NCBI RefSeq assembly: GCF_029961185.1
Contig: NZ_JASBQQ010000001.1
Location: 842,462 to 906,461, forward strand
Direction of reading: 5' to 3'
Length of the DNA: 64,000 nucleotides
DNA from: Albidovulum aestuarii
GTDB taxonomy: Bacteria > Pseudomonadota > Alphaproteobacteria > Rhodobacterales > Rhodobacteraceae
Shown: in pieces, positions 2,916-52,553 of the stretch
How positions within the stretch are numbered: the first letter of the stretch is position 1
Layout of the letters: every line of letters begins with the position of its first letter
Notes under the pieces: generated by a model
Databases searched by the model: none
The model's input: only the letters and a program-made list of their open reading frames with translations
What the model was told of the DNA's origin: nothing
Made by a program: the position numbers and the translations under genes

Positions 2916-2940
2916 CGTGTCCACGACCGTTGCTCCTAGG

Positions 2941-2970
2941 CCTGTTTTCCGATAAGTCCGGGAAAACAGG
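2941..2970 (+). promoter_or_regulatory. Perfect hairpin in the nhaA 5' leader
   Basis: CCTGTTTTCC and GGAAAACAGG form perfect 10-bp arms around a 10-base loop, 25 bases upstream of the nhaA start. No T-run follows, so it is a poor intrinsic terminator. It could be a terminator for the upstream permease operon, a protein operator, or part of a cation-responsive leader. The sequence shows only the symmetry. Confidence 0.4.
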
Positions 2971-2994
2971 GCCAAAGCGGGAGGGGGCACGCGT

Positions 2995-4248
2995 ATGTAT
3001 CGCGTCTGGAATTACGTCACCAACTATTCTCTGCTGTTGATCGCCGGGGCCCTGATCGCGCTGATCTGGGCCAATATCGACGCGTCGAGTTACCATCAGT
3101 TCGTCGATTTCGTGATCGTCGATCACTTCTTCATCGGCCATGCACATGAGGAAGGCGGCCACATCACCCGGACGCTGACGCTGCACTACCTCGTCAACGA
3201 CATCGGCATGGCCTTCTTCTTCGCCATCGCAGCGAAGGAAGTGTGGGAGGCGATCATCCTCGAAAACGGCTCTCTGCGCGGTAAGAAGGCGATGACGCCC
3301 CTGATCGCGACCGCAGGCGGCATGTTCGGCCCGATCGCCGTGTATCTTGGCCTCGCCGCTGTTCTGGGTGTCTATGAGACGGTGAGCCGTGGCTGGGCGA
3401 TCCCGACCGCCACCGATATCGCGTTTTCGTACCTCGTTGGCCGCATGGTCTTTGGCGCCGGACACCCGGCGATCCGCTTCCTTCTGCTGCTGGCTATTGC
3501 CGACGATGCGGCGGGGCTGATCATCCTGGCGATCTTCTATCCATCTGGTGATCTTGCACCGGAATGGCTGATCCTGTCCTTCGGCGCGGCCTTTGCCGTC
3601 TTCGTGCTGGCCAACTGGCTACCGCGTCGCCTTGACCGGGGCAACCAGTTGCGCCCGAACTCCACCTGGGTTCGGCAGAAGCTGTCGTTCTGGCCCTATC
3701 TCATCGCCGGCTGCCTGAGCTGGTACGGTTTTCAGGAATCGGGCATCCACCCCGCGCTTGGCCTTCTGCCCATCGTGCCGGCGATCCCGCATGCTGATCG
3801 CGCCTTCGGTATCTTCGCCGAGGCCGAGCAGTATCTCACCGACCTTCTGAACTGGATCGAGCATCATCTGAAATACCCGGTGGAGTTTGTCCTGTTCTTC
3901 TTCGGTCTACTGAACGCGGGCGTGGAGTTTTCGGCGATTGCCGAGCCGACGTGGCTGGTGCTCCTGGGGCTGATCATCGGCAAGCCTGTCGGTATCTTCC
4001 TGTTCGGCTGGTTCGCCGCCTATCCGATGAAACTCGGCCTGCCGCAGGGCATGCGGTCGGTCGACCTCGTCGTAATCGGTTTCGTCGCCGCCATCGGCTT
4101 CACCGTTGCGCTCTTTGTCGCCTCGGTCGCCTTCCCGGCCGGACCGGTTCAGGATGCCGCCAAGATGGGTGCGCTCTTCTCCTTCGGCGCGGCGGTCCTG
4201 TCCATCATTGCGGGTAAGGCCTTCCGGGTCGAGAAGGTCAACGGCTGA
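2995..4248 (+). CDS. nhaA: Na+/H+ antiporter NhaA
   Basis: 417-residue inner-membrane antiporter that exchanges external protons for cytoplasmic sodium (or lithium), contributing to pH and salt tolerance. Diagnostic motifs are AIPTATDIAF (helix IV crossing motif) and LLLAIADDAAGL (the paired aspartates essential for transport). About 12 hydrophobic segments are visible. A periplasmic-side insertion near residues 45-60 (HAHEEGGHITR) makes it slightly longer than the 388-residue E. coli protein. A GGAGG ribosome-binding site precedes the ATG. It stands alone between two operons, with hairpins on both sides. Confidence 0.95.
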   Translation: MYRVWNYVTNYSLLLIAGALIALIWANIDASSYHQFVDFVIVDHFFIGHAHEEGGHITRTLTLHYLVNDIGMAFFFAIAAKEVWEAIILENGSLRGKKAMTPLIATAGGMFGPIAVYLGLAAVLGVYETVSRGWAIPTATDIAFSYLVGRMVFGAGHPAIRFLLLLAIADDAAGLIILAIFYPSGDLAPEWLILSFGAAFAVFVLANWLPRRLDRGNQLRPNSTWVRQKLSFWPYLIAGCLSWYGFQESGIHPALGLLPIVPAIPHADRAFGIFAEAEQYLTDLLNWIEHHLKYPVEFVLFFFGLLNAGVEFSAIAEPTWLVLLGLIIGKPVGIFLFGWFAAYPMKLGLPQGMRSVDLVVIGFVAAIGFTVALFVASVAFPAGPVQDAAKMGALFSFGAAVLSIIAGKAFRVEKVNG

Positions 4249-5029: not shown

Positions 5030-6584
5030 AGCTCAGAGGTTTCGCATTCGTCCAAGTGACCGGCCGCCGGCAAAACCGGCCTCCGAACCGCTCGCGCCGC
5101 CCGATGATGGTTTCGGCGATCAGAAATTCCCGACGGCCGAACATCCCACGGAACCGAAAAGTTCAGCTGAGGAACTGGCCGCAATTCGCGCCGAGGGGTT
5201 GACCGGGCGCCAGCTCAGAACCGCCCGGCGCGTCGCCCAGAAGAATGGTATCGAAGCGGCCGACGATTTCGATGCGGTGCGACTGCTGCGGAAACGTGGG
5301 ATCGATCCGTTCCAACCGTCGCAGGTCATGCAACTCATCGAAGGGGACCGGCCAGGTCCGGATCAGGCGGGGCGCATTCAGTTGCCTCAGACCCTTCCCG
5401 AACAGCCGGGCGTTCCGGGCCGCCCCATTGAGCCGGATGATCGCGCATCGGCGATCCTGCAGATTCAGCGCGATATTGTCCGCCGCCGTCGCCGCAACTT
5501 CAGGATGCTGCTTGCCCGGCTTGCCGCTTTCGTACTGGTGCCGACCATCGTCGTCGGCTGGTACTATTTCAAGATGGCGACGCCCCTCTACGCGACATAC
5601 AGCGAATTCATCATCCAGCAGAGCGAAGGGCAGGCCGCGAATATCGGCTCGATGTTCCGGGGAACCCAGTTCGCCACATCGCAGGATTCGATCAACGTCC
5701 AAGGCTATCTGCAATCGCGGGATGCCATGCTCCGTCTCGATCAAGACCATGGCTTCAAGGCGCATTTCAGCCAGCCGTCCATTGACCCGCTGCAGCGGCT
5801 GGACGCAGACGCGACGAACGAGGCCGCATACAAACTCTACAAGCGCAACGTCAAGATCGGCTACGACCCGACCGAGGGTATCATCAAGATGGAGATCATC
5901 GCAGCCGATCCCAATGTCAGCGAAACCTTCTCCAAGGCGCTGATCGGCTATGCCGAAGAGCAGGTGGACCAGCTTTCGTCCCGGCTGCGCGAGGATCAGA
6001 TGCAGGGCGCCCGCGACAGTTATGACGATGCAGAGAATAAGGTTAGCGAGGCGCAACAGCGGGTCTTGGCCCTGCAGGAGGAGTTGGGCATCCTCGACCC
6101 GGCGACCGAAAGTGGTTCGGTGATGACGCAGATCAACGGGTTCGAAATCGAACTGCAAAAAAAGCGGCTGGAATTGCAGCAGCTTCTCGACAACGCCCGC
6201 CCCAATCAGGCCCGCGTGAAGGGTGTGGAAGGCGACGTCCAAAGGCTTGAACAACTGATCGCGGGCCTGCGCGCGCAACTGACCGAAGGTGGCGCTGGCG
6301 GCGTCTCACTTGCACAGGTGACCGGCAAGCTGCGGATCGCCGAGGCCGATCTGCAGACCCGTCAGCTTATGCTGGCGCAGGCGCTTCAGCAGCTGGAAAC
6401 TGCCCGGATCGAGGCCAATCGCCAGGTCCGCTATCTTGAACCCAGCGTCCGGCCGGTCGCCCCCGACGAGGCAACCTATCCCCGCGCTTTCGAAAACACG
6501 GTCTTGGCCTTTCTGATCTTCGGTGGCATTTACCTCGTGATGTCACTGACCGCCTCGATCCTGCGGGAACAGGCGACCTCGTAA
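5022..6584 (+). CDS. kpsE: Capsule polysaccharide export inner-membrane protein (KpsE/CtrB-like)
   Basis: 520-residue polysaccharide co-polymerase of the KpsE/CtrB type, which spans the periplasm and links the KpsMT transporter to the outer-membrane channel. A long proline-rich, charged cytosolic N-terminus (about 170 residues, longer than in E. coli KpsE) is followed by a membrane segment (LLARLAAFVLVPTIVVGWYY), a periplasmic Wzz-like domain with extended coiled coil around residues 320-450, and a second membrane helix near the C-terminus (FLIFGGIYLVMSLTASIL). The ATG at 5022 overlaps the kpsT stop and is preferred over an in-frame upstream ATG inside kpsT. kdsA follows 10 bases downstream. 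Confidence 0.82.
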   Translation: MLKAQRFRIRPSDRPPAKPASEPLAPPDDGFGDQKFPTAEHPTEPKSSAEELAAIRAEGLTGRQLRTARRVAQKNGIEAADDFDAVRLLRKRGIDPFQPSQVMQLIEGDRPGPDQAGRIQLPQTLPEQPGVPGRPIEPDDRASAILQIQRDIVRRRRRNFRMLLARLAAFVLVPTIVVGWYYFKMATPLYATYSEFIIQQSEGQAANIGSMFRGTQFATSQDSINVQGYLQSRDAMLRLDQDHGFKAHFSQPSIDPLQRLDADATNEAAYKLYKRNVKIGYDPTEGIIKMEIIAADPNVSETFSKALIGYAEEQVDQLSSRLREDQMQGARDSYDDAENKVSEAQQRVLALQEELGILDPATESGSVMTQINGFEIELQKKRLELQQLLDNARPNQARVKGVEGDVQRLEQLIAGLRAQLTEGGAGGVSLAQVTGKLRIAEADLQTRQLMLAQALQQLETARIEANRQVRYLEPSVRPVAPDEATYPRAFENTVLAFLIFGGIYLVMSLTASILREQATS

Positions 6585-8733: not shown

Positions 8734-8808
8734 TGGGGCGTAGCCAAGTGGTAAGGCACCGGTTTTTGGTACCGCGCACCGTAGGTTCGAATCCTACCGC
8801 CCCAGCCA
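8734..8808 (+). tRNA. tRNA-Gln (anticodon TTG)
   Basis: The cloverleaf is readable: acceptor arms TGGGGCG and CGCCCCA, discriminator G, encoded CCA end, T-arm GTAGG TTCGAAT CCTAC, and anticodon loop TTTTGGT giving TTG. The first anticodon-stem pair is mismatched. Its 3' end is the integration target of the mobile region that follows, where the same 3' sequence recurs at 9219-9241 and 12081-12103. Confidence 0.93.
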
Positions 8809-9218
8809 ACACCCACTAAGTCATTGATATAATGCAGAAATTAGTATTTCAGCGCGTAGTTTCGGGACTACTCTGAGGTATAATAAAACCCCAGACACCA
8901 ACATTACCGAAATTCTGCCCGTTTCCCTGAAAAGTCTGGAATCGCGATTTTCGCGGTAGCAGTTTGGGCGAATGTGATGGCGATAGCATCGCATTCCAAG
9001 CGGTGAGAATTAAGCGGATCTGCCGATCGATATTCAAAAAATATCTTCTCCTTCCATTTTGCCAGTGGCAATAGTCAGTATGAACCAGACGTGGCATTCC
9101 ACTGCTTTCGCCTTGTCCGGGTCTAACTGCTACCACCCAGACTGCAACGATGGAAAGTGAATCGTAACCTTCTGATTTTACGGCGGTATTTCGGCACCAT
9201 CAAAAGATGTACTGGAAA
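8809..9218. other. Decayed end of an older integrated element
   Basis: No gene can be supported here. The stretch around 8930-8965 (AAGTCTGGAA, then ATTTTCGCGGTAGCAGTTTG) closely matches the one at about 9365-9400 just past the second tRNA-like repeat. That suggests tRNA-Gln is followed first by a collapsed copy of the same recombinase-element end and then by a complete one. Confidence 0.45.
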
Positions 9219-9241
9219 TTCGAATCCTACCAGCCCAGCCA
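9219..9241 (+). repeat. tRNA-Gln 3'-end repeat (putative att site, left)
   Basis: 23 bases identical to the tRNA-Gln 3' end (8786-8808) at 21 positions: TTCGAATCCTACC, then two changed bases, then CCCAGCCA. It lies just beyond the C-terminal end of the serine recombinase gene and fits an attachment site made by insertion into the tRNA. Confidence 0.7.
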
Positions 9242-9462
9242 CCGCAAATAACCAATTGATATTAATGGATATTATGTGAAATAGCCGCCTGCATTCAGGG
9301 GCATTCGCAGGTTCCAGAATTGCCCAGACCGCCGATCTGGCGGAATAGCGACAGAATCTGCCGAAAGTCTGGAAACGCCATTTCGGCGGTAGCAGTTTGC
9401 AGGCGGGATGTTCAGTAAAGGAAGGTCTGGCGATTTCGCAGCGGCGGCAACGGTTCGTGCGA

Positions 9463-11139
9463 TCAGAGCGATTTGAACTGCGCCCGCTGTTCCTTCCAGA
9501 TTGACGGGAATGCGTGGGATTTCAGCCAGTCAGACGTGAGGCCGGTCGGTTGCCGGCCCTCGAATACATCGCGGATAACGTCCGGAGCCAGAAAAGCCAG
9601 TTCGAGAAGATGCTGGATACGCCGTTTCGAGGCGCCTTCAGCTTCCGCGATTTCCGCATAGGTTTGACCGGAACGGATCATGCCGAAGTAACGATGCGCC
9701 AGAGCGATGTTTCTGAAGAGAGTCTCGTCGCGGGTGCCGGCAGCATCTGCGAGGATGAGCTTTGTTTCGACGCCGCGTTTTCGGTGCCTGAACGCGTACT
9801 CAAGGATCAGGTGATCCGCAGAGATGCGTCCCTGTTCGGTGCGCAGGCGCGCTGCGACTTCCTTCGCTGAGAGGACAATTCCGATCTTCCCCGGCGCGAT
9901 TTGTACGCGTTCGACAAGGCAAAGGAGTTCCCCGCCTTTCTCGTCGCCGGTCTCGATCTCACCACCGGCCAGTTCTGTCAAAAGCTTGACACTTGATGCC
10001 ACTTCTTCCGTCGTAGCATCGCTGACGATATTAGCCTGTACCGTCGGCACACGCAGGTGGTTCCTGACCAGATCGGCAAGCAGCGTTTCAAGTTCAGGCG
10101 CCGGCAATCGCCAACCACCGGGATCTTTCGGATCAGAACTGCGGATCAGACGATGGGACACATAGTACCGGAGCCTGCGGCCCTTTGCGGTTTGGGTATG
10201 GCTGGGCGTCAGCCGGTCGCCGGTTTCGTCAAACACCTTTCCGGTCAGTAGGGAAACATGGCGTTTCGCACCATCGCTGTTTCGTCCTTTGCCCGAGCGC
10301 AAAATGACTGCACCAGCCTTCAGCAGTTCCTGCAACGCGTCCCAGACAGCAGGGTCTATGAGTGGCGGATGCTGGCCAGGCCAGACCTTTGCCTTGTGCC
10401 GGATGCGGCCTGCATAGATCGGGTTGGTCAGAATGTGATAGATGTGGCCGAAGCTGAACGGCGTTCCGCCCTTCAGCCGGCCTGACGACAATGTCCGGAT
10501 TGCTGTCCTCAGACCCAACTTATCCGCCTCGGCTTTGACGACCCGGATATTGCGATGCTGGCGGTAGAGATCGTAGATGGTCCGGATCGTTCGCGCGTCC
10601 GCCTCCCGGATCTTCAGCGTTCTGCCAGCGGGTTCATAGCCCAGAGGCACATTGCCCCCCATCCAGAGCCCCTTCCTTTTGGACGCCGCAATCTTGTCCC
10701 GGATGCGCTCGGCCGTCACCTCGCGCTCGAACTGGGCAAAGCTCAGCAGCATGTTCAACGTGAGCCGCCCCATGCTGGTGGCCGTATTGAACGATTGCGT
10801 GACAGACACAAACGACGCGCCGGAGGCATCGAGGATATCGACGATCTTGGCAAAATCGGCCAGTGACCGGGTCAGCCGGTCGATCTTGTAGACCAGGATC
10901 TGATCGACTGCTCCCCGGTGAATATCCGCCAAGAGCCGCTGCAGACCGGGTCGTTCCATAGTGCCGCCGGAGATACCGCCGTCATCATAGCGATCCGGCA
11001 CCTGCACCCAGCCTTCGTTCTTCTGGCTGGTGATAAAGGCGGCGCAGGCTTCGTGCTGAGCATCAAGCGAGTTGAAGTCCTGTTCCAGCCCGTCGTCCGA
11101 GCTCTTGCGGGTGTAGATCGCGCAGCGGATTTTTTTCAT
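9463..11139 (-). CDS. Large serine recombinase (site-specific integrase)
   Basis: 558-residue large serine recombinase. The N-terminal resolvase domain starts at CAIYTRKSSDDG, with the catalytic serine in the RKSS motif, and contains YDDGGISGG, YKIDRLTRSL and FAQFEREVTAERIRDKIAASK. A recombinase domain and zinc-ribbon-like region follow (TGKVFDETGDRLTPS). Such enzymes integrate and excise elements at short att cores, using a separate directionality factor for excision. The ATG at 11139 overlaps the stop of the DUF2924 gene, and the stop lies 222 bases from a tRNA-3'-end repeat. A clear homologue with the same neighbours sits at 50052-51692. I infer it catalyses integration at the tRNA-Gln end. 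Confidence 0.9.
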   Translation of the reverse strand: MKKIRCAIYTRKSSDDGLEQDFNSLDAQHEACAAFITSQKNEGWVQVPDRYDDGGISGGTMERPGLQRLLADIHRGAVDQILVYKIDRLTRSLADFAKIVDILDASGASFVSVTQSFNTATSMGRLTLNMLLSFAQFEREVTAERIRDKIAASKRKGLWMGGNVPLGYEPAGRTLKIREADARTIRTIYDLYRQHRNIRVVKAEADKLGLRTAIRTLSSGRLKGGTPFSFGHIYHILTNPIYAGRIRHKAKVWPGQHPPLIDPAVWDALQELLKAGAVILRSGKGRNSDGAKRHVSLLTGKVFDETGDRLTPSHTQTAKGRRLRYYVSHRLIRSSDPKDPGGWRLPAPELETLLADLVRNHLRVPTVQANIVSDATTEEVASSVKLLTELAGGEIETGDEKGGELLCLVERVQIAPGKIGIVLSAKEVAARLRTEQGRISADHLILEYAFRHRKRGVETKLILADAAGTRDETLFRNIALAHRYFGMIRSGQTYAEIAEAEGASKRRIQHLLELAFLAPDVIRDVFEGRQPTGLTSDWLKSHAFPSIWKEQRAQFKSL

Positions 11140-11573
11140 GCGCTGCTGCCGGTTGCTTTGTTCAGCCCGAAAAAGCGCGGTCCTGACCAACTCGTCCCCG
11201 TAATGTGCAGAGCAATGGCCGACAGCGATTTGTAACACTTGTCATTCAGCACAAAGCCGTTCTCTGTCGCATCAACCTGATACCGGCGGCCGTTCCATTC
11301 CCGGATCAGCTGCGTCCCGGGTCGGATCGCCAGAGCCGGGTCACGAACCGACTTGCCGTCTGCCACCGCATTCAGGGCGCGCTTCAGGTCCGGGGGCAGC
11401 CCCCCGAACCTTCGGCATTGCTCATGCCAGATCAATGCCTTGCGCATGAAGATCATCGACAGGAAATGCGGTGGCGCTGCACCGAATGCCTCCGCCCATG
11501 CCACGCGGAGGGCGGAGCGATCCATTGCGCTCAGGCCCGCCCACCGTGCCTCTATCACATCATCTGCCGTCAT
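11136..11573 (-). CDS. DUF2924 domain protein
   Basis: 145-residue protein of the DUF2924 type. The N-terminal half is helical (LRVAWAEAFGAAPPHFLS, then LPPDLKRALNAVADG). The C-terminal half holds GTQLIREWNGRRYQV and SLSAIALHITGTSWSGPRFFGL. That second part resembles the RAMA/DUF4357 pattern (a strand-rich module with SLSAxAxxITG), a class suggested to recognise DNA; this likeness is my inference. The gene sits between DUF3489 and the recombinase with overlaps on both sides, exactly as in the second copy at 51689-52099. The constant pairing argues for a role in controlling recombination, such as directionality or target recognition, but none is demonstrated. Confidence 0.8.
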   Translation of the reverse strand: MTADDVIEARWAGLSAMDRSALRVAWAEAFGAAPPHFLSMIFMRKALIWHEQCRRFGGLPPDLKRALNAVADGKSVRDPALAIRPGTQLIREWNGRRYQVDATENGFVLNDKCYKSLSAIALHITGTSWSGPRFFGLNKATGSSA

Positions 11574-11878
11574 CAGGTCGCATCCGCATCCGGCATGGCA
11601 ATTATCTGGTACCGCGAAGATTTCCCGTTGCCCGGCTTGGCGGACGTGACCTCATAGCCAGCCTTGCGGAGGCCCGTCAGAGCCGCACGCGTGGTGTGCG
11701 GCAACCAGCCGAGATTCTTGCTGATCGTCGCCACGTCGGCCCCGTCCTTCCGGCCGAGCAAGGCGATGAGTCTGGCTTTCTTTGTTACCGCCCGAGGCGC
11801 AGATACCGGCTTTGGGTTTTGCTCGAACCTTGGCTTAGCAGCTGTCGTCGGTTCTGACTTTTTTGATGGTCTGGTCAT
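11573..11878 (-). CDS. DUF3489 domain protein (winged-helix-like)
   Basis: 101-residue basic protein of the DUF3489 type. A lysine- and proline-rich N-terminus precedes a helix-turn-helix-like core: KKARLIALLGRKDGADVATI, then LGWLPHTTRAALTGLRKAGY, then GNGKSSRYQI as a wing. It is the first gene of the DUF3489-DUF2924-recombinase operon and overlaps the next start. A homologue occupies the same place in the second unit. A DNA-binding regulator or recombination directionality factor would fit, by inference from context and fold likeness only. Confidence 0.75.
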   Translation of the reverse strand: MTRPSKKSEPTTAAKPRFEQNPKPVSAPRAVTKKARLIALLGRKDGADVATISKNLGWLPHTTRAALTGLRKAGYEVTSAKPGNGKSSRYQIIAMPDADAT

Positions 11879-12020
11879 GATTGTCTCCGTTCTGATCCCG
11901 CAGACCCAATAGGGCTCCTGCTACTGACCAAAGCCCGGCAATCCGGGCGGAGACATTTGCGCCGCCGCATGGGGGCGACGCTGTCGACAGTACCGCTCTC
12001 CTCAACAGGCAAGTCCAGTG
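11879..12020 (-). promoter_or_regulatory. Conserved leader of the recombinase unit, with hairpin
   Basis: This non-coding stretch matches 52422-52553 in front of the second unit. Shared blocks are CTGCTACTGAC, a hairpin GCCCGG-CAAT-CCGGGC at 11933-11948 followed by GGAGA, ACCGCTCT, and AAGTCCAGT. Conservation of non-coding DNA between diverged paralogues points to a promoter, operator or recombination-control site. Transcription would run leftward into DUF3489. Confidence 0.55.
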
Positions 12021-12080
12021 AAATATCCGGCAAAGATCTAAATTTAGTACGTAAATCCACCATCAAATGATGGTCTCTGG

Positions 12081-12103
12081 TTCGAATCCGACTTGCCCAG
12101 CCA
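12081..12103 (+). repeat. tRNA-3'-end-like repeat (putative att site, right)
   Basis: TTCGAATCC, six variable bases, then CCCAGCCA. It agrees with the 9219-9241 repeat at 20 of 23 positions and with tRNA-Gln at 18. With that repeat it brackets a unit of about 2.9 kb containing only the recombinase, DUF2924 and DUF3489 genes. The T-stem does not pair, so this is not a functional tRNA. Confidence 0.6.
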
Positions 12104-12275: not shown

Positions 12276-12388
12276 TCAGAGTGCCGCGACCATGAGGCGC
12301 TGCGCTGTCCAGTCGGATGGAAGCACATGGGTCTTGCACCAGTCTGAGGTGAAGCCGAGCGGTTGCCTGCCATCGAGAACGTCACGAA
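12276..12388 (-). pseudogene. C-terminal remnant of a third serine recombinase
   Basis: The last 37 or so codons (DVLDGRQPLGFTSDWCKTH and onward, ending MVAAL) closely match the end of the recombinase at 50052-51692. The 170 bases beyond the stop, up to the att-like repeat, also match (12098-12388 against 49874-50162). The remnant is cut at about 12388, where an IS1634-type fragment begins. A third copy of the recombinase unit therefore once stood here. Confidence 0.8.
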
Positions 12389-48854: not shown

Positions 48855-49640
48855 GTGCCAGTCGAGGAGATCGCGCGCGGCCTGGACATATTGGAAGTTC
48901 GAAAGGCGCAGTTGGACGGAGTTGAGGGCATGCTCTTGACCGATCGGGTGCGCAGCTTTGGCGCCATCCTGGTCAACATGGCTCACGGTGCGCGTCGGGC
49001 GCGGTTCAGTATCGCCCATGAACTCGGGCACTTTCTCATGGAACGGCACGACCTGAGCAAGGACGACGGCTTCCGCTGCACTGCGAGGGACATGCGGGAA
49101 GAGCGTGATGATACGCGTCATCACAAGCAGGAGGCGGAGGCAAACCACTTCGCGATCGCGCTCCTGGCGCCGGTATACAAGATGCTCACGTGCATCGACG
49201 ATGATCCCGACTTGCGCAAACTTCAGATGAACTCCGACGAACTCGACCTGAGCCTTGAGGCAACGATCCGGCGCTATGTCGACCTGACGGGTGAGCCGGT
49301 CGCCGCGATCTGGACCAAGGACGGCAGGATCCGCACGGCCAAGCGCCATCGCGATTTCCCGTGGATCCCGCGCGGCAGGGGCGACATTCTCTCCGACCTG
49401 ACCCAGGCCTCCCGGGCCATCCGCAACGGTAAGATGGGCTTCACCGACGCGGCGGAGAGCCCGGCTGCGGCCTGGACCGACCGGGACGGCGTGGAGATCT
49501 ACGAGCAGACACGCGTCGGCCGCGACGGACATGCCGTTACGTTGCTCTGGGCCGATCTGCCCGATGACGATGATGCAAACGATGGCGAGCCCATAGAGAT
49601 TGGCATGCCAGGATTTGGCAGGAGCAGGCGGCGCAAATAG
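48855..49640 (+). CDS. ImmA/IrrE family metallopeptidase
   Basis: 261-residue protein with the zinc-protease motif RFSIAHELGHFLMERHDLSK (HExxH) and the downstream QEAEANHFAIALLAP glutamate region. The frame is open upstream and may start earlier at a CTG near 48762 with GAGGAGG before it, coupling it to the XRE gene; the GTG at 48855 is the first common start codon. By analogy with ImmA it should cleave the neighbouring repressor. Confidence 0.85.
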   Translation: MPVEEIARGLDILEVRKAQLDGVEGMLLTDRVRSFGAILVNMAHGARRARFSIAHELGHFLMERHDLSKDDGFRCTARDMREERDDTRHHKQEAEANHFAIALLAPVYKMLTCIDDDPDLRKLQMNSDELDLSLEATIRRYVDLTGEPVAAIWTKDGRIRTAKRHRDFPWIPRGRGDILSDLTQASRAIRNGKMGFTDAAESPAAAWTDRDGVEIYEQTRVGRDGHAVTLLWADLPDDDDANDGEPIEIGMPGFGRSRRRK

Positions 49641-49645
49641 CCCTG

Positions 49646-49836
49646 TCCCTGTTCCGCCTGATCCGTTCCCTGTTTTTCCCTGTGAACTTCCCTGATCAGG
49701 GATTTCAAATTCCCTGTTATCACGCGCAGGGAGTTTGCTTACAAACCATTGAAAAGGCGTCATTAATCAGGACGGAAATCGCCCCAACGCCCCGAAAACA
49801 CGCCGATTTCCCTGTAAATTCCCTGTAAACAGGGAT
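49646..49836. repeat. Cluster of TTCCCTG(T) motifs
   Basis: Within about 190 bases the motif TCCCTG, mostly TTCCCTGT, occurs some seven times on the plus strand and three times reversed, including the palindrome TTCCCTGATCAGGGAT at about 49688. It lies between the ImmA gene and the recombinase att region. Such arrays can be binding sites for a repressor, recombinase accessory protein or replication initiator. Confidence 0.7.
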
Positions 49837-49873
49837 TTCTGGGGCGAGACCGGATAGCCCGGGACTGCCAGCA

Positions 49874-50051
49874 CAGCCACCCAGTTCTGCAAATCGAGAC
49901 GGTGCGAGGTTGACCCCGGATAGTCGCGCGTTTTCCGCGACTTGCGCGGAATCCTTGTTTGCGCAGACCGCCAGGTCACCGCAAACGGTCACGCAAACCG
50001 GCCAAAGTCTGCGTTTGCCATTTTCGCGGTGCGAGGTGTGGAGACGGTAGA
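49874..50051. other. Recombinase-proximal att-like block
   Basis: No gene. From CAGCCA at 49874 onward the sequence matches 12098-12275, the region past the stop of the decayed recombinase copy (shared GCAAATCGAGACGGTGCGA, TCGCGCGTTTTCCGCG). Left of CAGCCA the two diverge, so the crossover point of the att site probably lies at or near CAGCCA. Confidence 0.6.
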
Positions 50052-51692
50052 TCAGAGTGCCGAGACCATGCGGCGCTGCTCGTCCCAGTCGGACGGAAGC
50101 GCGTGGGTCCTGCACCAGTCGGAGGTAAATCCGAGCGGCTGTTTGCCATCGAGAACGTCGCGGATGATGTCCGGGGCGAGGAAGGCGAGATCGACCATCT
50201 GCTGCACGCGGCGCTTCGAGACGCCTTCGGCTATTGCAATCTCATCGAAGCCGCGCCCGGCCCGGATCTCATTGAACCAGCGATGGGCGCGAGCGATGTT
50301 GCGGATCAACGTGTTATCGCGCCCGGCAGGGGCATCGGCGAGCACCAGCTTCGTCTCGACGCCGCGCTTGCGGAGCTGGAACGGCACGGATTTCGTAAGG
50401 GCATCTGCATCCAGCCGATCCACGTCCAGCGTCAGATGCAGGGCGAGCGCAGCTGCATCGAGGACGAGCATTAAATGCCCCGGCGCAATGTCGATGCGGC
50501 CGACGAGGTTCAGAAGATCGGCTCGACCTGCCGCACCGGTCAGCCCTTCCAGCCTGGACCGCAGCCGCGCGATCTCATCCGTGCCCGGCGCGGTCAACAA
50601 GCGTCCGGCCAGCGTGACGTCGGACAACATCCCGCGAACGACCGCCTCGATCCGAGCCTCCAGTTCTTCCGCTGGCAGCCGCCATCCGGAGACACCCGCC
50701 TCGCCGCTGCGCGCCGCCAAACGGTGCGAGATGTAATAGCGTAACCGTGCACCGGCCCGGGTCCGGGAATGCGAGGGCGTGAACCGGTCGCCGGTTTCAT
50801 CATAAATCTTGCCGCAGAGTAGCGAACGAGTGGACGATGCCTTCCGGGCGCGGGGTTTCCTTGCCTCGGCCGTCAGCTGCGCTTGCACTTCTTCCCAAAG
50901 TTCAGGTTCGATGATCGCGGGGTGTTGGCCGTCATGCACCTGTCCCTTGTGCCGTATCCTCCCGGCATAGAGCGGGTTCGTCAGGATGTGATGGATGTGA
51001 CCACGATCCAAAGGTATCCCGCCCCGCATGCGACCATCCGCAACGGCCCTGCGTTTCGACCGAAGGCCAAGCCCCGCTGCCGCCTCCTTGACGTCACGAA
51101 CCGTGCCGTACCCGCGGTAGAGATCGTAGAGTGTGCGCACCGTCTCTGCCTCTTCCGAATTGATCCGGAGCGTGCGCCCGTCGGCGTCGTAACCCAGCGG
51201 CACGTAGCCACCCATCCAGAGCCCCTTGCGCTTGGAGGCCGCGATCTTGTCGCGGATCCGCTCGGCCGTCACCTCACGTTCGAACTGGGCGAAGCTCAGG
51301 AGCATGTTGAGCGTGAGCCGCCCCATGCTGGTTGCGGTGTTGAAGCTCTGCGTCACCGAGACGAAGGAGGCTCCCGCCGAGTCCAGCCGGTCGACGATCT
51401 TGGCGAAATCGGCAAGCGACCGGGTCAGCCGGTCGATCTTGTAGACCACGATCTGATCGACGAGGCCGGCATCGACATCGGCCAAAAGCTGCTGCATCGC
51501 CGGGCGCTCCAACGTGCCACCCGAGATCCCGCCGTCATCGTATTGCGTTGGCTGCAATATCCAGCCTTCCGCCTTCTGGCTGGCAATGTAGGCAGCACAA
51601 GCCTCCCGCTGGGCATGGAGCGAGTTGAACTCCTGCTCGAGTCCCTCTTCAGAGCTCTTCCGCGTATAGATCGCGCAGCGGATCTTCTTCAT
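50052..51692 (-). CDS. Large serine recombinase (second copy)
   Basis: 546-residue large serine recombinase, same architecture as the copy at 9463-11139: CAIYTRKSSEEGLEQEFNSL with the catalytic serine, YDDGGISGGTLERPAMQQLL, YKIDRLTRSLADFAKIVDRL, FAQFEREVTAERIRDKIAAS, GKIYDETGDRFTPSHSRTR. The start overlaps the DUF2924 stop by four bases. It would integrate or excise the element comprising the genes at 46.2-52.6 kb. Confidence 0.92.
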   Translation of the reverse strand: MKKIRCAIYTRKSSEEGLEQEFNSLHAQREACAAYIASQKAEGWILQPTQYDDGGISGGTLERPAMQQLLADVDAGLVDQIVVYKIDRLTRSLADFAKIVDRLDSAGASFVSVTQSFNTATSMGRLTLNMLLSFAQFEREVTAERIRDKIAASKRKGLWMGGYVPLGYDADGRTLRINSEEAETVRTLYDLYRGYGTVRDVKEAAAGLGLRSKRRAVADGRMRGGIPLDRGHIHHILTNPLYAGRIRHKGQVHDGQHPAIIEPELWEEVQAQLTAEARKPRARKASSTRSLLCGKIYDETGDRFTPSHSRTRAGARLRYYISHRLAARSGEAGVSGWRLPAEELEARIEAVVRGMLSDVTLAGRLLTAPGTDEIARLRSRLEGLTGAAGRADLLNLVGRIDIAPGHLMLVLDAAALALHLTLDVDRLDADALTKSVPFQLRKRGVETKLVLADAPAGRDNTLIRNIARAHRWFNEIRAGRGFDEIAIAEGVSKRRVQQMVDLAFLAPDIIRDVLDGKQPLGFTSDWCRTHALPSDWDEQRRMVSAL

Positions 51693-52099
51693 CCCTTGCC
51701 TCCGGCTCGATCATTGAGTCCGAAGAAGCGCGGGCCGGACCAGGTCGTCCCCGTGATGTGCCGGGCAATGGCCGAGAGCGATGGCCAGGTCCTGCCGTCG
51801 AGCCGGAAGCCTTTCTCCTGCACCTCGACCTGGTAGTTCCGCCCGTTCCACTCCCGCAACAGATGCGCGCCGGGTCGCAACCGTCCCCGCGCTGCCTCTT
51901 CGACCGGCTTGCCCGACGCAATCTGGCTGAGCGCACGCCGGGTGGCGGCGGGCAGGCCGCCGTATTGCCTCACCTGCGCTTCGTGGGCGAGCGCCTTGCC
52001 CAGGAAGGCGACCGAGGCATAGGCGGGCGGAGGAGACCCGAAGGCCTCCTCCCAATCCTGCCTTAGCGCGGCCCGATCCGGATCGGCCTTACCCGGCAT
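51689..52099 (-). CDS. DUF2924 domain protein (second copy)
   Basis: 136-residue homologue of the protein at 11136-11573: FGSPPPAYASVAFLGKALAH, LPAATRRALSQIASGKPVEE, HLLREWNGRNYQVEVQEKGF, SLSAIARHITGTTWSGPRFF. The ATG at 52099 overlaps the DUF3489 stop and is preferred to a longer in-frame frame start. Conservation is strongest in the C-terminal strand-rich part. Confidence 0.8.
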   Translation of the reverse strand: MPGKADPDRAALRQDWEEAFGSPPPAYASVAFLGKALAHEAQVRQYGGLPAATRRALSQIASGKPVEEAARGRLRPGAHLLREWNGRNYQVEVQEKGFRLDGRTWPSLSAIARHITGTTWSGPRFFGLNDRAGGKG

Positions 52100-52415
52100 C
52101 CTTGGACTCCAGAGGGTTCGTGGCAGCGGTGTCCGCCGACACAGTGATGGCTGGCGTTCCGACGATCCGGTAGCGGGCTGGCTTTCCCTGCCCGGACTTC
52201 TCGGCAACCACCTCGTGGCCCGCCTTGCGCAAGCCGGTCAGTGCGGCTCGAGTGGTGTGTGTCTGCCAGCCGAGCTTCGTACTGATCGTGATAACGTCGG
52301 CACCCGCGACGGCGCCGAGCATCCTGATCAGCTGGTCCTTCTTGGTCGCACGCTTGGCCGGCAGCTTCGCGGACGCATTGCGCCGGGGTTTTACGTTGGT
52401 GATCACTGTGGTCAT
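52089..52415 (-). CDS. DUF3489 domain protein (second copy)
   Basis: 108-residue basic protein matching 11573-11878: KKDQLIRMLGAVAGADVITI, STKLGWQTHTTRAALTGLRK, AGHEVVAEKSGQGKPARYRI. AGGAG lies seven bases before the ATG at 52415; another ATG two codons earlier (52421) is possible. It is first in the three-gene unit. Confidence 0.75.
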   Translation of the reverse strand: MTTVITNVKPRRNASAKLPAKRATKKDQLIRMLGAVAGADVITISTKLGWQTHTTRAALTGLRKAGHEVVAEKSGQGKPARYRIVGTPAITVSADTAATNPLESKDAG

Positions 52416-52421
52416 GGTCAT

Positions 52422-52553
52422 CTCCTGTCCTAGGTCACAGGAGCGCCCTGCCCCTGCTACTGACATGAGCCCGGAGGAGCCCGGGCGGAGATGTGGCCGG
52501 TCATTCAAGCCAGTGTCACTACCGCTCTTGCACAGCGCGAAGTCCAGTCATTT
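52422..52553 (-). promoter_or_regulatory. Conserved leader of the second recombinase unit
   Basis: Matches 11879-12020: CTGCTACTGAC, a GCCCGG/CCGGGC stem at 52469-52486, ACCGCTCT and AAGTCCAGT in the same order and spacing. Probable promoter/operator of the DUF3489-DUF2924-recombinase operon. Confidence 0.55.

Follow-up and report, generated by a model that had tools for sequence, protein, structure and literature searches.

The window analysed here, a stretch of 64,000 nucleotides from the genome of Albidovulum aestuarii, carries beside an intact transfer RNA gene for glutamine (tRNA-Gln) a unit of 2.86 kb, hereafter unit A (9242-12103), which is probably a minimal integrative element belonging to a family of serine recombinases that target tRNA genes. 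Unit A has a gene content of three genes only, encoding a large serine recombinase, a DUF2924 protein and a DUF3489 protein; it carries in addition a conserved leader and lies between copies of an attachment site (att) that repeats the tRNA-Gln 3' end, and the array as a whole gives the picture of elements piled up at a single tRNA gene (Table 1). A tRNA-targeting family with compact stacking units and a leader candidate is more interesting than what the first-pass annotation of this DNA had reported, a gene trio between repeats that might be a minimal self-mobile cassette.

The three genes run leftward and overlap as first described, by four bases between recombinase and DUF2924 and by one base between DUF2924 and DUF3489, and all four Pfam matches (PF00239, PF07508, PF11149, PF11994) are above cut-offs; the longest open reading frame of the recombinase begins at a GTG, 11238. 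That the unit holds nothing else is right as far as genes are concerned, but a conserved and covarying leader is present as well. The repeats at 9219 and 12081 are indeed identical at 20 of 23 positions (compared by eye) and do copy the tRNA-Gln 3' end, the first att copy lying inside the tRNA gene itself, and a search with the att pattern gives three matches in the window and none in any of 100 shuffles. In the window as in relatives, an intact tRNA and a displaced tRNA 3' fragment flank the integrase gene, as in a tRNA island; genes for a relaxase or conjugation, for replication or for a virion are not among the three of unit A. The recombinase has the layout of a large serine recombinase, a Resolvase catalytic domain with its serine followed by a Recombinase domain, and Ser13 in the motif YTRKS, which we take to be the nucleophile, is invariant in 45 aligned recombinases of the family. 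Around unit A, the 433 bp next to the tRNA match the ends of unit A in two short stretches, of 36 bp (89% identity) and 49 bp (78%); the decayed third copy announced near 12276 turned out to be the end of a recombinase, and the trio recurs at 50052-52421 (unit B), also as announced. Gene-less stretches with element ends, in a layout like that of miniature inverted-repeat transposable elements, were seen at window 8809-9241 (433 bp) and at 2940-3240 of the contig L065 (~300 bp).

Table 1. Features of the tRNA-Gln array, unit A and unit B (positions in the window).
Feature	Position	Strand	Basis or remark
tRNA-Gln (TTG), intact, target of the array	8734-8808	+	tRNA prediction and Rfam
att copy 1, the tRNA-Gln 3' end	8784-8808	+	repeat search
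Gene-less 433-bp remnant: part of a recombinase-side flank and its own distal att	8809-9241		
att copy 2, at recombinase-side end of unit A	9217-9241	+	
Unit A, 2,862 bp	9242-12103	-	homology limits in the G013 copy L045
Palindrome CCAGAC-N37-GTCTGG past the unit A recombinase stop	9324-9372		
Large serine recombinase, 558 aa, PF00239 and PF07508	9463-11139	-	ATG start
DUF2924 protein, 145 aa, PF11149	11136-11573	-	
DUF3489 protein, 101 aa, PF11994, predicted winged helix	11573-11878	-	
Leader, predicted structured RNA (model R1), ~125 nt	11897-12021	-	between distal att and DUF3489
att copy 3, distal end of unit A	12079-12103	+	TTCGAA motif 68 bp from leader
Recombinase C-terminal fragment of a further decayed unit, 38 residues	12279-12392	-	76% identical to unit B
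Junction at the recombinase side of unit B, interpreted as the distal end of a different element	49846-49879		short core CAGCCA, beside CCCTGT repeats
Unit B palindrome CGCAGAC-N38-GTCTGCG	49962-50013		
Unit B large serine recombinase	50052-51692	-	
Unit B DUF2924	51689-52207	-	
Unit B DUF3489	~52092-52421	-	
Unit B leader	52434-52550	-	

Unit A has a counterpart in another species of the same genus (locus L045 of genome G013), and the two copies are 90.7% identical over 2,855 bp, compared with 76.6% over 7,291 bp for the host DNA beside tRNA-Gln in the same pair of genomes. Homology between the copies stops within the att copy on the recombinase side and tails off shortly beyond the distal att, and the flanks of the G013 copy are different: it adjoins the distal end of another element at one end and a recombinase fragment at the opposite end. 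Since the homology is limited by the att copies and the flanks differ, the 2.86-kb unit moved between species as one discrete piece. The repeats, whose position at the element boundaries was a point on which the first-pass annotation had staked its proposal, were checked in G013 and coincide there with the limits of homology. A unit in G080, 67% identical, has an att copy ~75 bp upstream of its leader (by eye).

Scanning named genomes, and retaining the best 80 of at least 529 confirmed candidates, we obtained 79 loci of the family. In 57 of these 79 loci the recombinase stop is followed by a convergent tRNA gene whose 3' end lies 173-510 bp away; tRNA prediction gave just five others across the 79 loci, of which one adjoins a second recombinase. 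The targets comprise 12 anticodons, for Gln (TTG, CTG), Glu, Ser (four anticodons), Met, Leu, Ala, Lys and Trp; a tRNA-Arg call inside the DUF2924 genes of L011 and L056 was taken as spurious. Placed on a tree of 75 recombinases, the target shows 13 changes over 12 groups against a shuffled mean of 30.4, none of 200 shuffles being as low, and the tRNA target is apparently inherited along the recombinase tree, with switches. A Sphingomonad-type clade (L121, L122, L124, L134, L135) has no tRNA beside the recombinase, and Rfam gave no RNA match at the recombinases of this clade in four loci scanned. DUF2924 lies upstream of the recombinase in 76 and DUF3489 in 62 of the 79 loci, some of the losses being contig ends, which upholds the conservation of the pair claimed at first; to call the pair strictly conserved is too strong, because there are unpaired DUF3489 copies and eight stacks, described below, without DUF3489.

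Compact units recur outside the window, some of them head to tail. Two recombinases in this arrangement are present in 15 of 159 loci from the named genomes and IMG/VR, and in 13 of the 15 the spacing is 2.6-3.1 kb from start to start, three spacings having been extended from partial matches or near-duplicates. This count drops three of 18 two-recombinase loci, namely L068, where a fragment is ~5 kb off, and L221 and L241, where one recombinase is in two pieces; it takes L051 and L087, which are the same contig, once; and as some contigs are near-duplicates (L217/L218; L226/L227/L244), the independent cases are fewer than 15. The gap between the recombinases, 1.0-1.4 kb in 13 stacks, holds DUF2924 in all 13 and DUF3489 in five (L070, L087, L117, L197, L210), and second units with DUF2924 but no profile-detected DUF3489 were seen in L217, L218, L226, L227, L228, L235, L244 and L266; the composition of the unit is the trio alone for some stacks and leader, DUF2924 and recombinase for others. 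The stacked recombinases, 42-67% identical in the six pairs compared, are not recent duplications by this measure. By eye, the stack intervals carry mimics of tRNA-Met, -Ser, -Ala or -Gln 3' ends, and in the IMG/VR stacks the distance from att mimic to leader is 54 bp for five Met-like contigs, near-duplicates among them, and 83, 108 and 119 bp for three others. We also scanned up to 400 bp upstream of 75 leader copies for a distal att (background 0.028 per 400 nt), and found one by pattern at 68, 72, 73, 74 and 124 bp, respectively, in unit A, L045, L070, L077 and the second unit of L117, the range of 68-74 bp corresponding to four Gln units and 124 bp to a tRNA-Ser lineage. Two more that the pattern had missed were found by eye in L051 (at roughly 75 bp) and L197, bringing the total to seven of 75, and an eighth case, again by eye at roughly 75 bp, is L279, which is outside the 75 copies. 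Pattern matches in L076, L123 and L139 (172-374 bp) were rejected as att copies, being without the tRNA acceptor part.

The leader is a block of ~120 nt that ends just before DUF3489; of the 26 recombinase copies retrieved initially, 23 have it, and the three that do not (L054, L061, L063) are also those where no DUF3489 was found. Searching the 79 loci with model R1 gave 62 rows at E up to 1 and 51 at 0.01 or below, many of which are training sequences. In 248 family genomes R1 gave 37 hits: 34 of them immediately precede a DUF3489-DUF2924 pair, one precedes DUF2924 without DUF3489 and two have neither gene, so that a leader precedes 34 of 48 such pairs versus 0 of 102 unpaired DUF3489 genes; these counts are subject to search filters that lose weak matches and to a possible overlap of training and test genomes. 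With R2, 385 genomes of the class yielded 35 hits in 20 genomes, and at the 19 best loci outside the A. aestuarii genome DUF3489 is directly downstream in 14 and DUF2924 with the recombinase only in two, the others being one with a second leader first, one contig end and one with nothing. Rfam 15 at gathering score returned tRNAs only, the rows at the leader being at chance level, with a best of 12.3 bits against a cut-off of 65.5, and an Rfam scan of six loci returned no rows at all. On these comparisons the leader is a candidate RNA family outside Rfam and a close genomic partner of DUF3489-DUF2924. Leader copies without the usual gene directly downstream were observed at G751:C9:530-666 and 1663-1798 (1.1 kb apart), G657:C219, G169:C12:434867 and G125:C5:15812, and in one subclade the leaders of L114 (~5105-5141) and L117 show a strong hairpin followed by a T run, like a terminator. 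A role as guide RNA, of the IS110 or bridge-RNA kind, was rejected: the match of a leader to its own target is no better than to others', the longest match averaging 6.88 within the same locus (34 loci) and 6.90 across loci (766 pairs).

The same block could also be a DNA control region, operator or enhancer, rather than a folded RNA, and the alignments bear on this in two ways. In an unfitted alignment of 37 leaders, 89.9% of cells form pairs, while shuffles give 84.1 and slid versions no more than 54.1; doubly changed cells number 40 against 19.5 +/- 3.1 shuffled, all in helix P5, which directly precedes the ribosome site. On that alignment P1, P2 and P4 are without a doubly changed pair and the pairs with double changes are at shuffle level (6 against 5.3, no excess), as a DNA region would have it; the excess of doubly changed cells in P5 goes the other way, and so does the larger alignment of 62 matches, fitted to the model, with 131 doubly changed cells against 54.8 +/- 6.3 and double changes at 16 of 21 pairs against 7.9 +/- 1.1. 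We therefore hold a purely DNA-level role to be improbable.

As to the small proteins, about 62 of 67 DUF2924 hits are beside a recombinase (by eye). The predicted DUF2924 structure has a predicted local distance difference test score of 89.6, and neither a fold match in the PDB better than E 0.2 nor a sequence match was found for it. A published remark partly ties DUF2924 to the RAMA DNA-binding domain (PMC11342252), a kinship for which, on the sequence side, we found a sub-threshold hit of the relative in Acidithiobacillus phage AcaML1 only. DUF3489 is modelled as a winged helix, with helices between residues 33 and 73 and two strands; its Foldseek neighbours are ArsR, MecI and MarR (probability 1.00, E 0.005 or worse) and it has a weak MecI profile match (E 0.009), so the early impression that one small partner resembles a helix-turn-helix protein holds at the level of prediction. 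No DUF3489 match was found in deposited phages. A second class of loci, perhaps prophages (e.g. G067:C17, G109:C1, G026:C5), carries a longer-frame DUF3489 mostly 15-19 kb from DUF2924, and its recombinases match in two pieces, apparently split. That DUF2924 or DUF3489 is a true directionality factor we regard as possible and rather doubtful: the fixed operon with the recombinase speaks for a shared function, yet it offers no obvious switch unless the leader supplies one.

Downstream of the recombinase stop, exact inverted 6-mers are most frequent at separations of 43, 44 and 46 bases (25, 32 and 23 of 98 loci), compared with a mean count of 7.4 over 15-119 bases, one palindrome being able to count at several distances and many loci showing none. 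Arms such as CGCAGAC/GTCTGCG, CCAGAC/GTCTGG and CAGAGAC/GTCTCTG enclose an inner gap of ~38, and they change together between lineages in a fixed geometry. The palindrome is inside the element, away from the crossover, and the recombinase or a partner may bind there.

The switch between element and host sequence falls in the last tRNA bases (GGCTG/CAGCC), from which we infer the crossover to be there (core CAGCCA). We propose that unit A integrates at tRNA 3' ends, and would leave them, by its own recombinase; with a crossover in the last tRNA bases the tRNA would stay whole and a mimic of its 3' end would mark the distal end. New arrivals would always be inserted next to the tRNA, which would explain both the intact tRNA beside the outermost recombinase and the stacks. 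DUF2924 would be the working partner of the recombinase, as accessory or directionality factor, DUF3489 and the leader RNA would regulate the operon, with DUF3489 dispensable in some lineages, and the palindrome would be a protein-binding site. It is conceivable, though we think it unlikely, that these units form a new class, self-sufficient at ~2.6-3.1 kb, with built-in directionality control, and spreading by stacking at tRNA 3' ends; in this reading a complete unit would consist of leader RNA, DUF2924, serine recombinase, tRNA-mimic att sites and, in most lineages, winged-helix DUF3489. Gene transfer agent particles hold ~4 kb, and if this were true the unit would be small enough to travel whole in them; a GTA_TIM gene is present in the A. 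aestuarii genome.

The compact units might instead be relics of ordinary serine-recombinase islands that had stacked at a tRNA gene and whose cargo was then deleted, so that only integrase modules stayed between att copies. In favour of this, most relatives are not compact, the array of the window itself includes a remnant without genes and a recombinase stub of 38 residues, the match of the second recombinase of L051/L087 ends at residue 465 and one recombinase of the L210 stack has a stop. Yet 11 of the 12 recombinase stretches in the six stack pairs are stop-free, the unit shared with G013 moved between species at the identity given above, and the distance from distal att to leader is near constant within lineages (68-74 bp; 54 bp) and short in others, a regularity that random deletions would not produce, although common descent within a lineage would. 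We consider the relic explanation possible but on balance doubtful. It is more doubtful still that the trio is a mere integration module of phages or islands and that the apparent units are accidents of tandem insertion. The recombinase-DUF2924 pair does occur in Wolbachia phage WO and in phage AcaML1, and there are prophage-looking loci with DUF3489 ~17 kb from DUF2924, but against this stand the spacing of 13 of the 15 stacks, with the gap occupied by DUF2924, by DUF3489 in five cases and, where seen, by att mimic and leader, and the different neighbours of the G013 copy; we think this reading very improbable.

Several observations weigh against a minimal integrative element all the same. 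No exact filled and empty pair was found among the genus genomes compared: tRNA-Gln has ordinary-looking neighbour genes (by eye) in G002, G004 and G017, and the gene adjoining it in G017 is on another contig in G001 and elsewhere in others, so there is no matched pair. No excision or circle was seen; the 3,378-bp contig L065, considered as an excised circle, was rejected, its ends being without overlap. The baseline of host identity is a single 7.3-kb region, and weak BLAST matches run ~28 bp beyond the distal att. A distal att was not found at 68 of the 75 leader copies, so these family members are larger, have another type of end or have been cut. DUF3489 was not found by profile before the second recombinase in eight of 15 stacks, and 22 of the 79 loci are without a tRNA at the expected position (some at contig ends, some at tandem junctions, some in the Sphingomonad clade). 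Of 150 DUF3489 hits in the 248 family genomes, 102 are not followed immediately by DUF2924, and for 27 of these 102 a DUF2924 lies 11-27 kb away on the same strand; the DUF genes, which the first-pass annotation would have near recombinases, thus differ, DUF2924 staying near and DUF3489 being often elsewhere. The earlier idea of a minimal self-mobile cassette is supported, short of proof, by discrete movement and by recurring compact units with their own distal att.

Seven near-complete members of this recombinase family are present in the A. aestuarii genome, with DUF2924 and DUF3489 immediately upstream of every one, and one copy adjoins a tRNA-Tyr gene. Near-identical copies on different contigs (L012 and L013) have 3' flanks identical for more than 300 bp. 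A different kind of distal end, whose core is short (GGCTGTGCTGGCAGTCC side), was seen at window 49640-49880 and in L010, L045, L049, L057 and L063, mostly accompanied by a CCCTGT repeat block. An IS110 transposase stands immediately upstream of unit B, and the 13-49 kb interval between units A and B encodes urease alpha, UreD, an amidase, solute-binding and transporter proteins, a glycine-cleavage-T-like protein, several transposases, a DNA methylase and an IrrE-like peptidase.

In the accounts we drew on, tRNA genes are described as the territory of tyrosine recombinases, and cases of serine recombinases there as rare. The cases given are phiRSM1 (tRNA-Ser), eight recombinases of Mycobacterium actinomycete integrative and conjugative elements (AICE; tRNA-Leu) and Paracoccus phage Pami6 (tRNA-Met) (PMC3218068, PMC6536676). 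In these, likewise, a serine recombinase acts at a tRNA gene; by their descriptions, the present family differs in spanning 12 anticodons and in its compact units. For Mycobacterium abscessus, 16 of 23 tyrosine-integrase sites are reported to overlap tRNA or tmRNA genes, and the serine-integrase satellite shown in that report has a site that is not a tRNA (PMC10654092). The family of unit A is a natural series in which to study site recognition by serine recombinases and a source of candidate tools for integration directed at tRNA genes, and its compact units would be some of the smallest integrative elements equipped with att sites of their own.

With the serine integrases of phiC31, Bxb1 and A118 the unit A recombinase has in common the Resolvase and Recombinase architecture, and it is 28.5% identical to that of A118 over 65%. 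By contrast with these, the family lies at tRNA 3' ends, with a tRNA-mimic distal att in compact units, and the unit A recombinase is in an operon with DUF2924 and DUF3489 behind a conserved leader; Pfam gave no zinc ribbon match (PF13408) in it. In Wolbachia phage WO, a phage of 65 kb (PMC10299305), gp30, a DUF2924 protein, is directly upstream of gp31, a full-length related recombinase (31% identity), whereas DUF3489 is not annotated and no leader match was found in the stretch fetched; sr1WO is stated to insert in a magnesium chelatase gene (PMC9203015). In AcaML1, DUF2924 is upstream of a 48%-identical recombinase split in two genes, the large subunit of which retains a zinc ribbon; a 63-aa gene without a Pfam match precedes DUF2924, and there is no leader match in the stretch fetched. 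DUF2924, nearly always adjacent, is a concrete directionality-factor candidate for this recombinase branch, phage WO included. Islands of the Islander class, finally, keep the tRNA whole and have a displaced 3'-end fragment at the far end, as does unit A, but that class was defined with tyrosine integrases and unit A has a serine recombinase.

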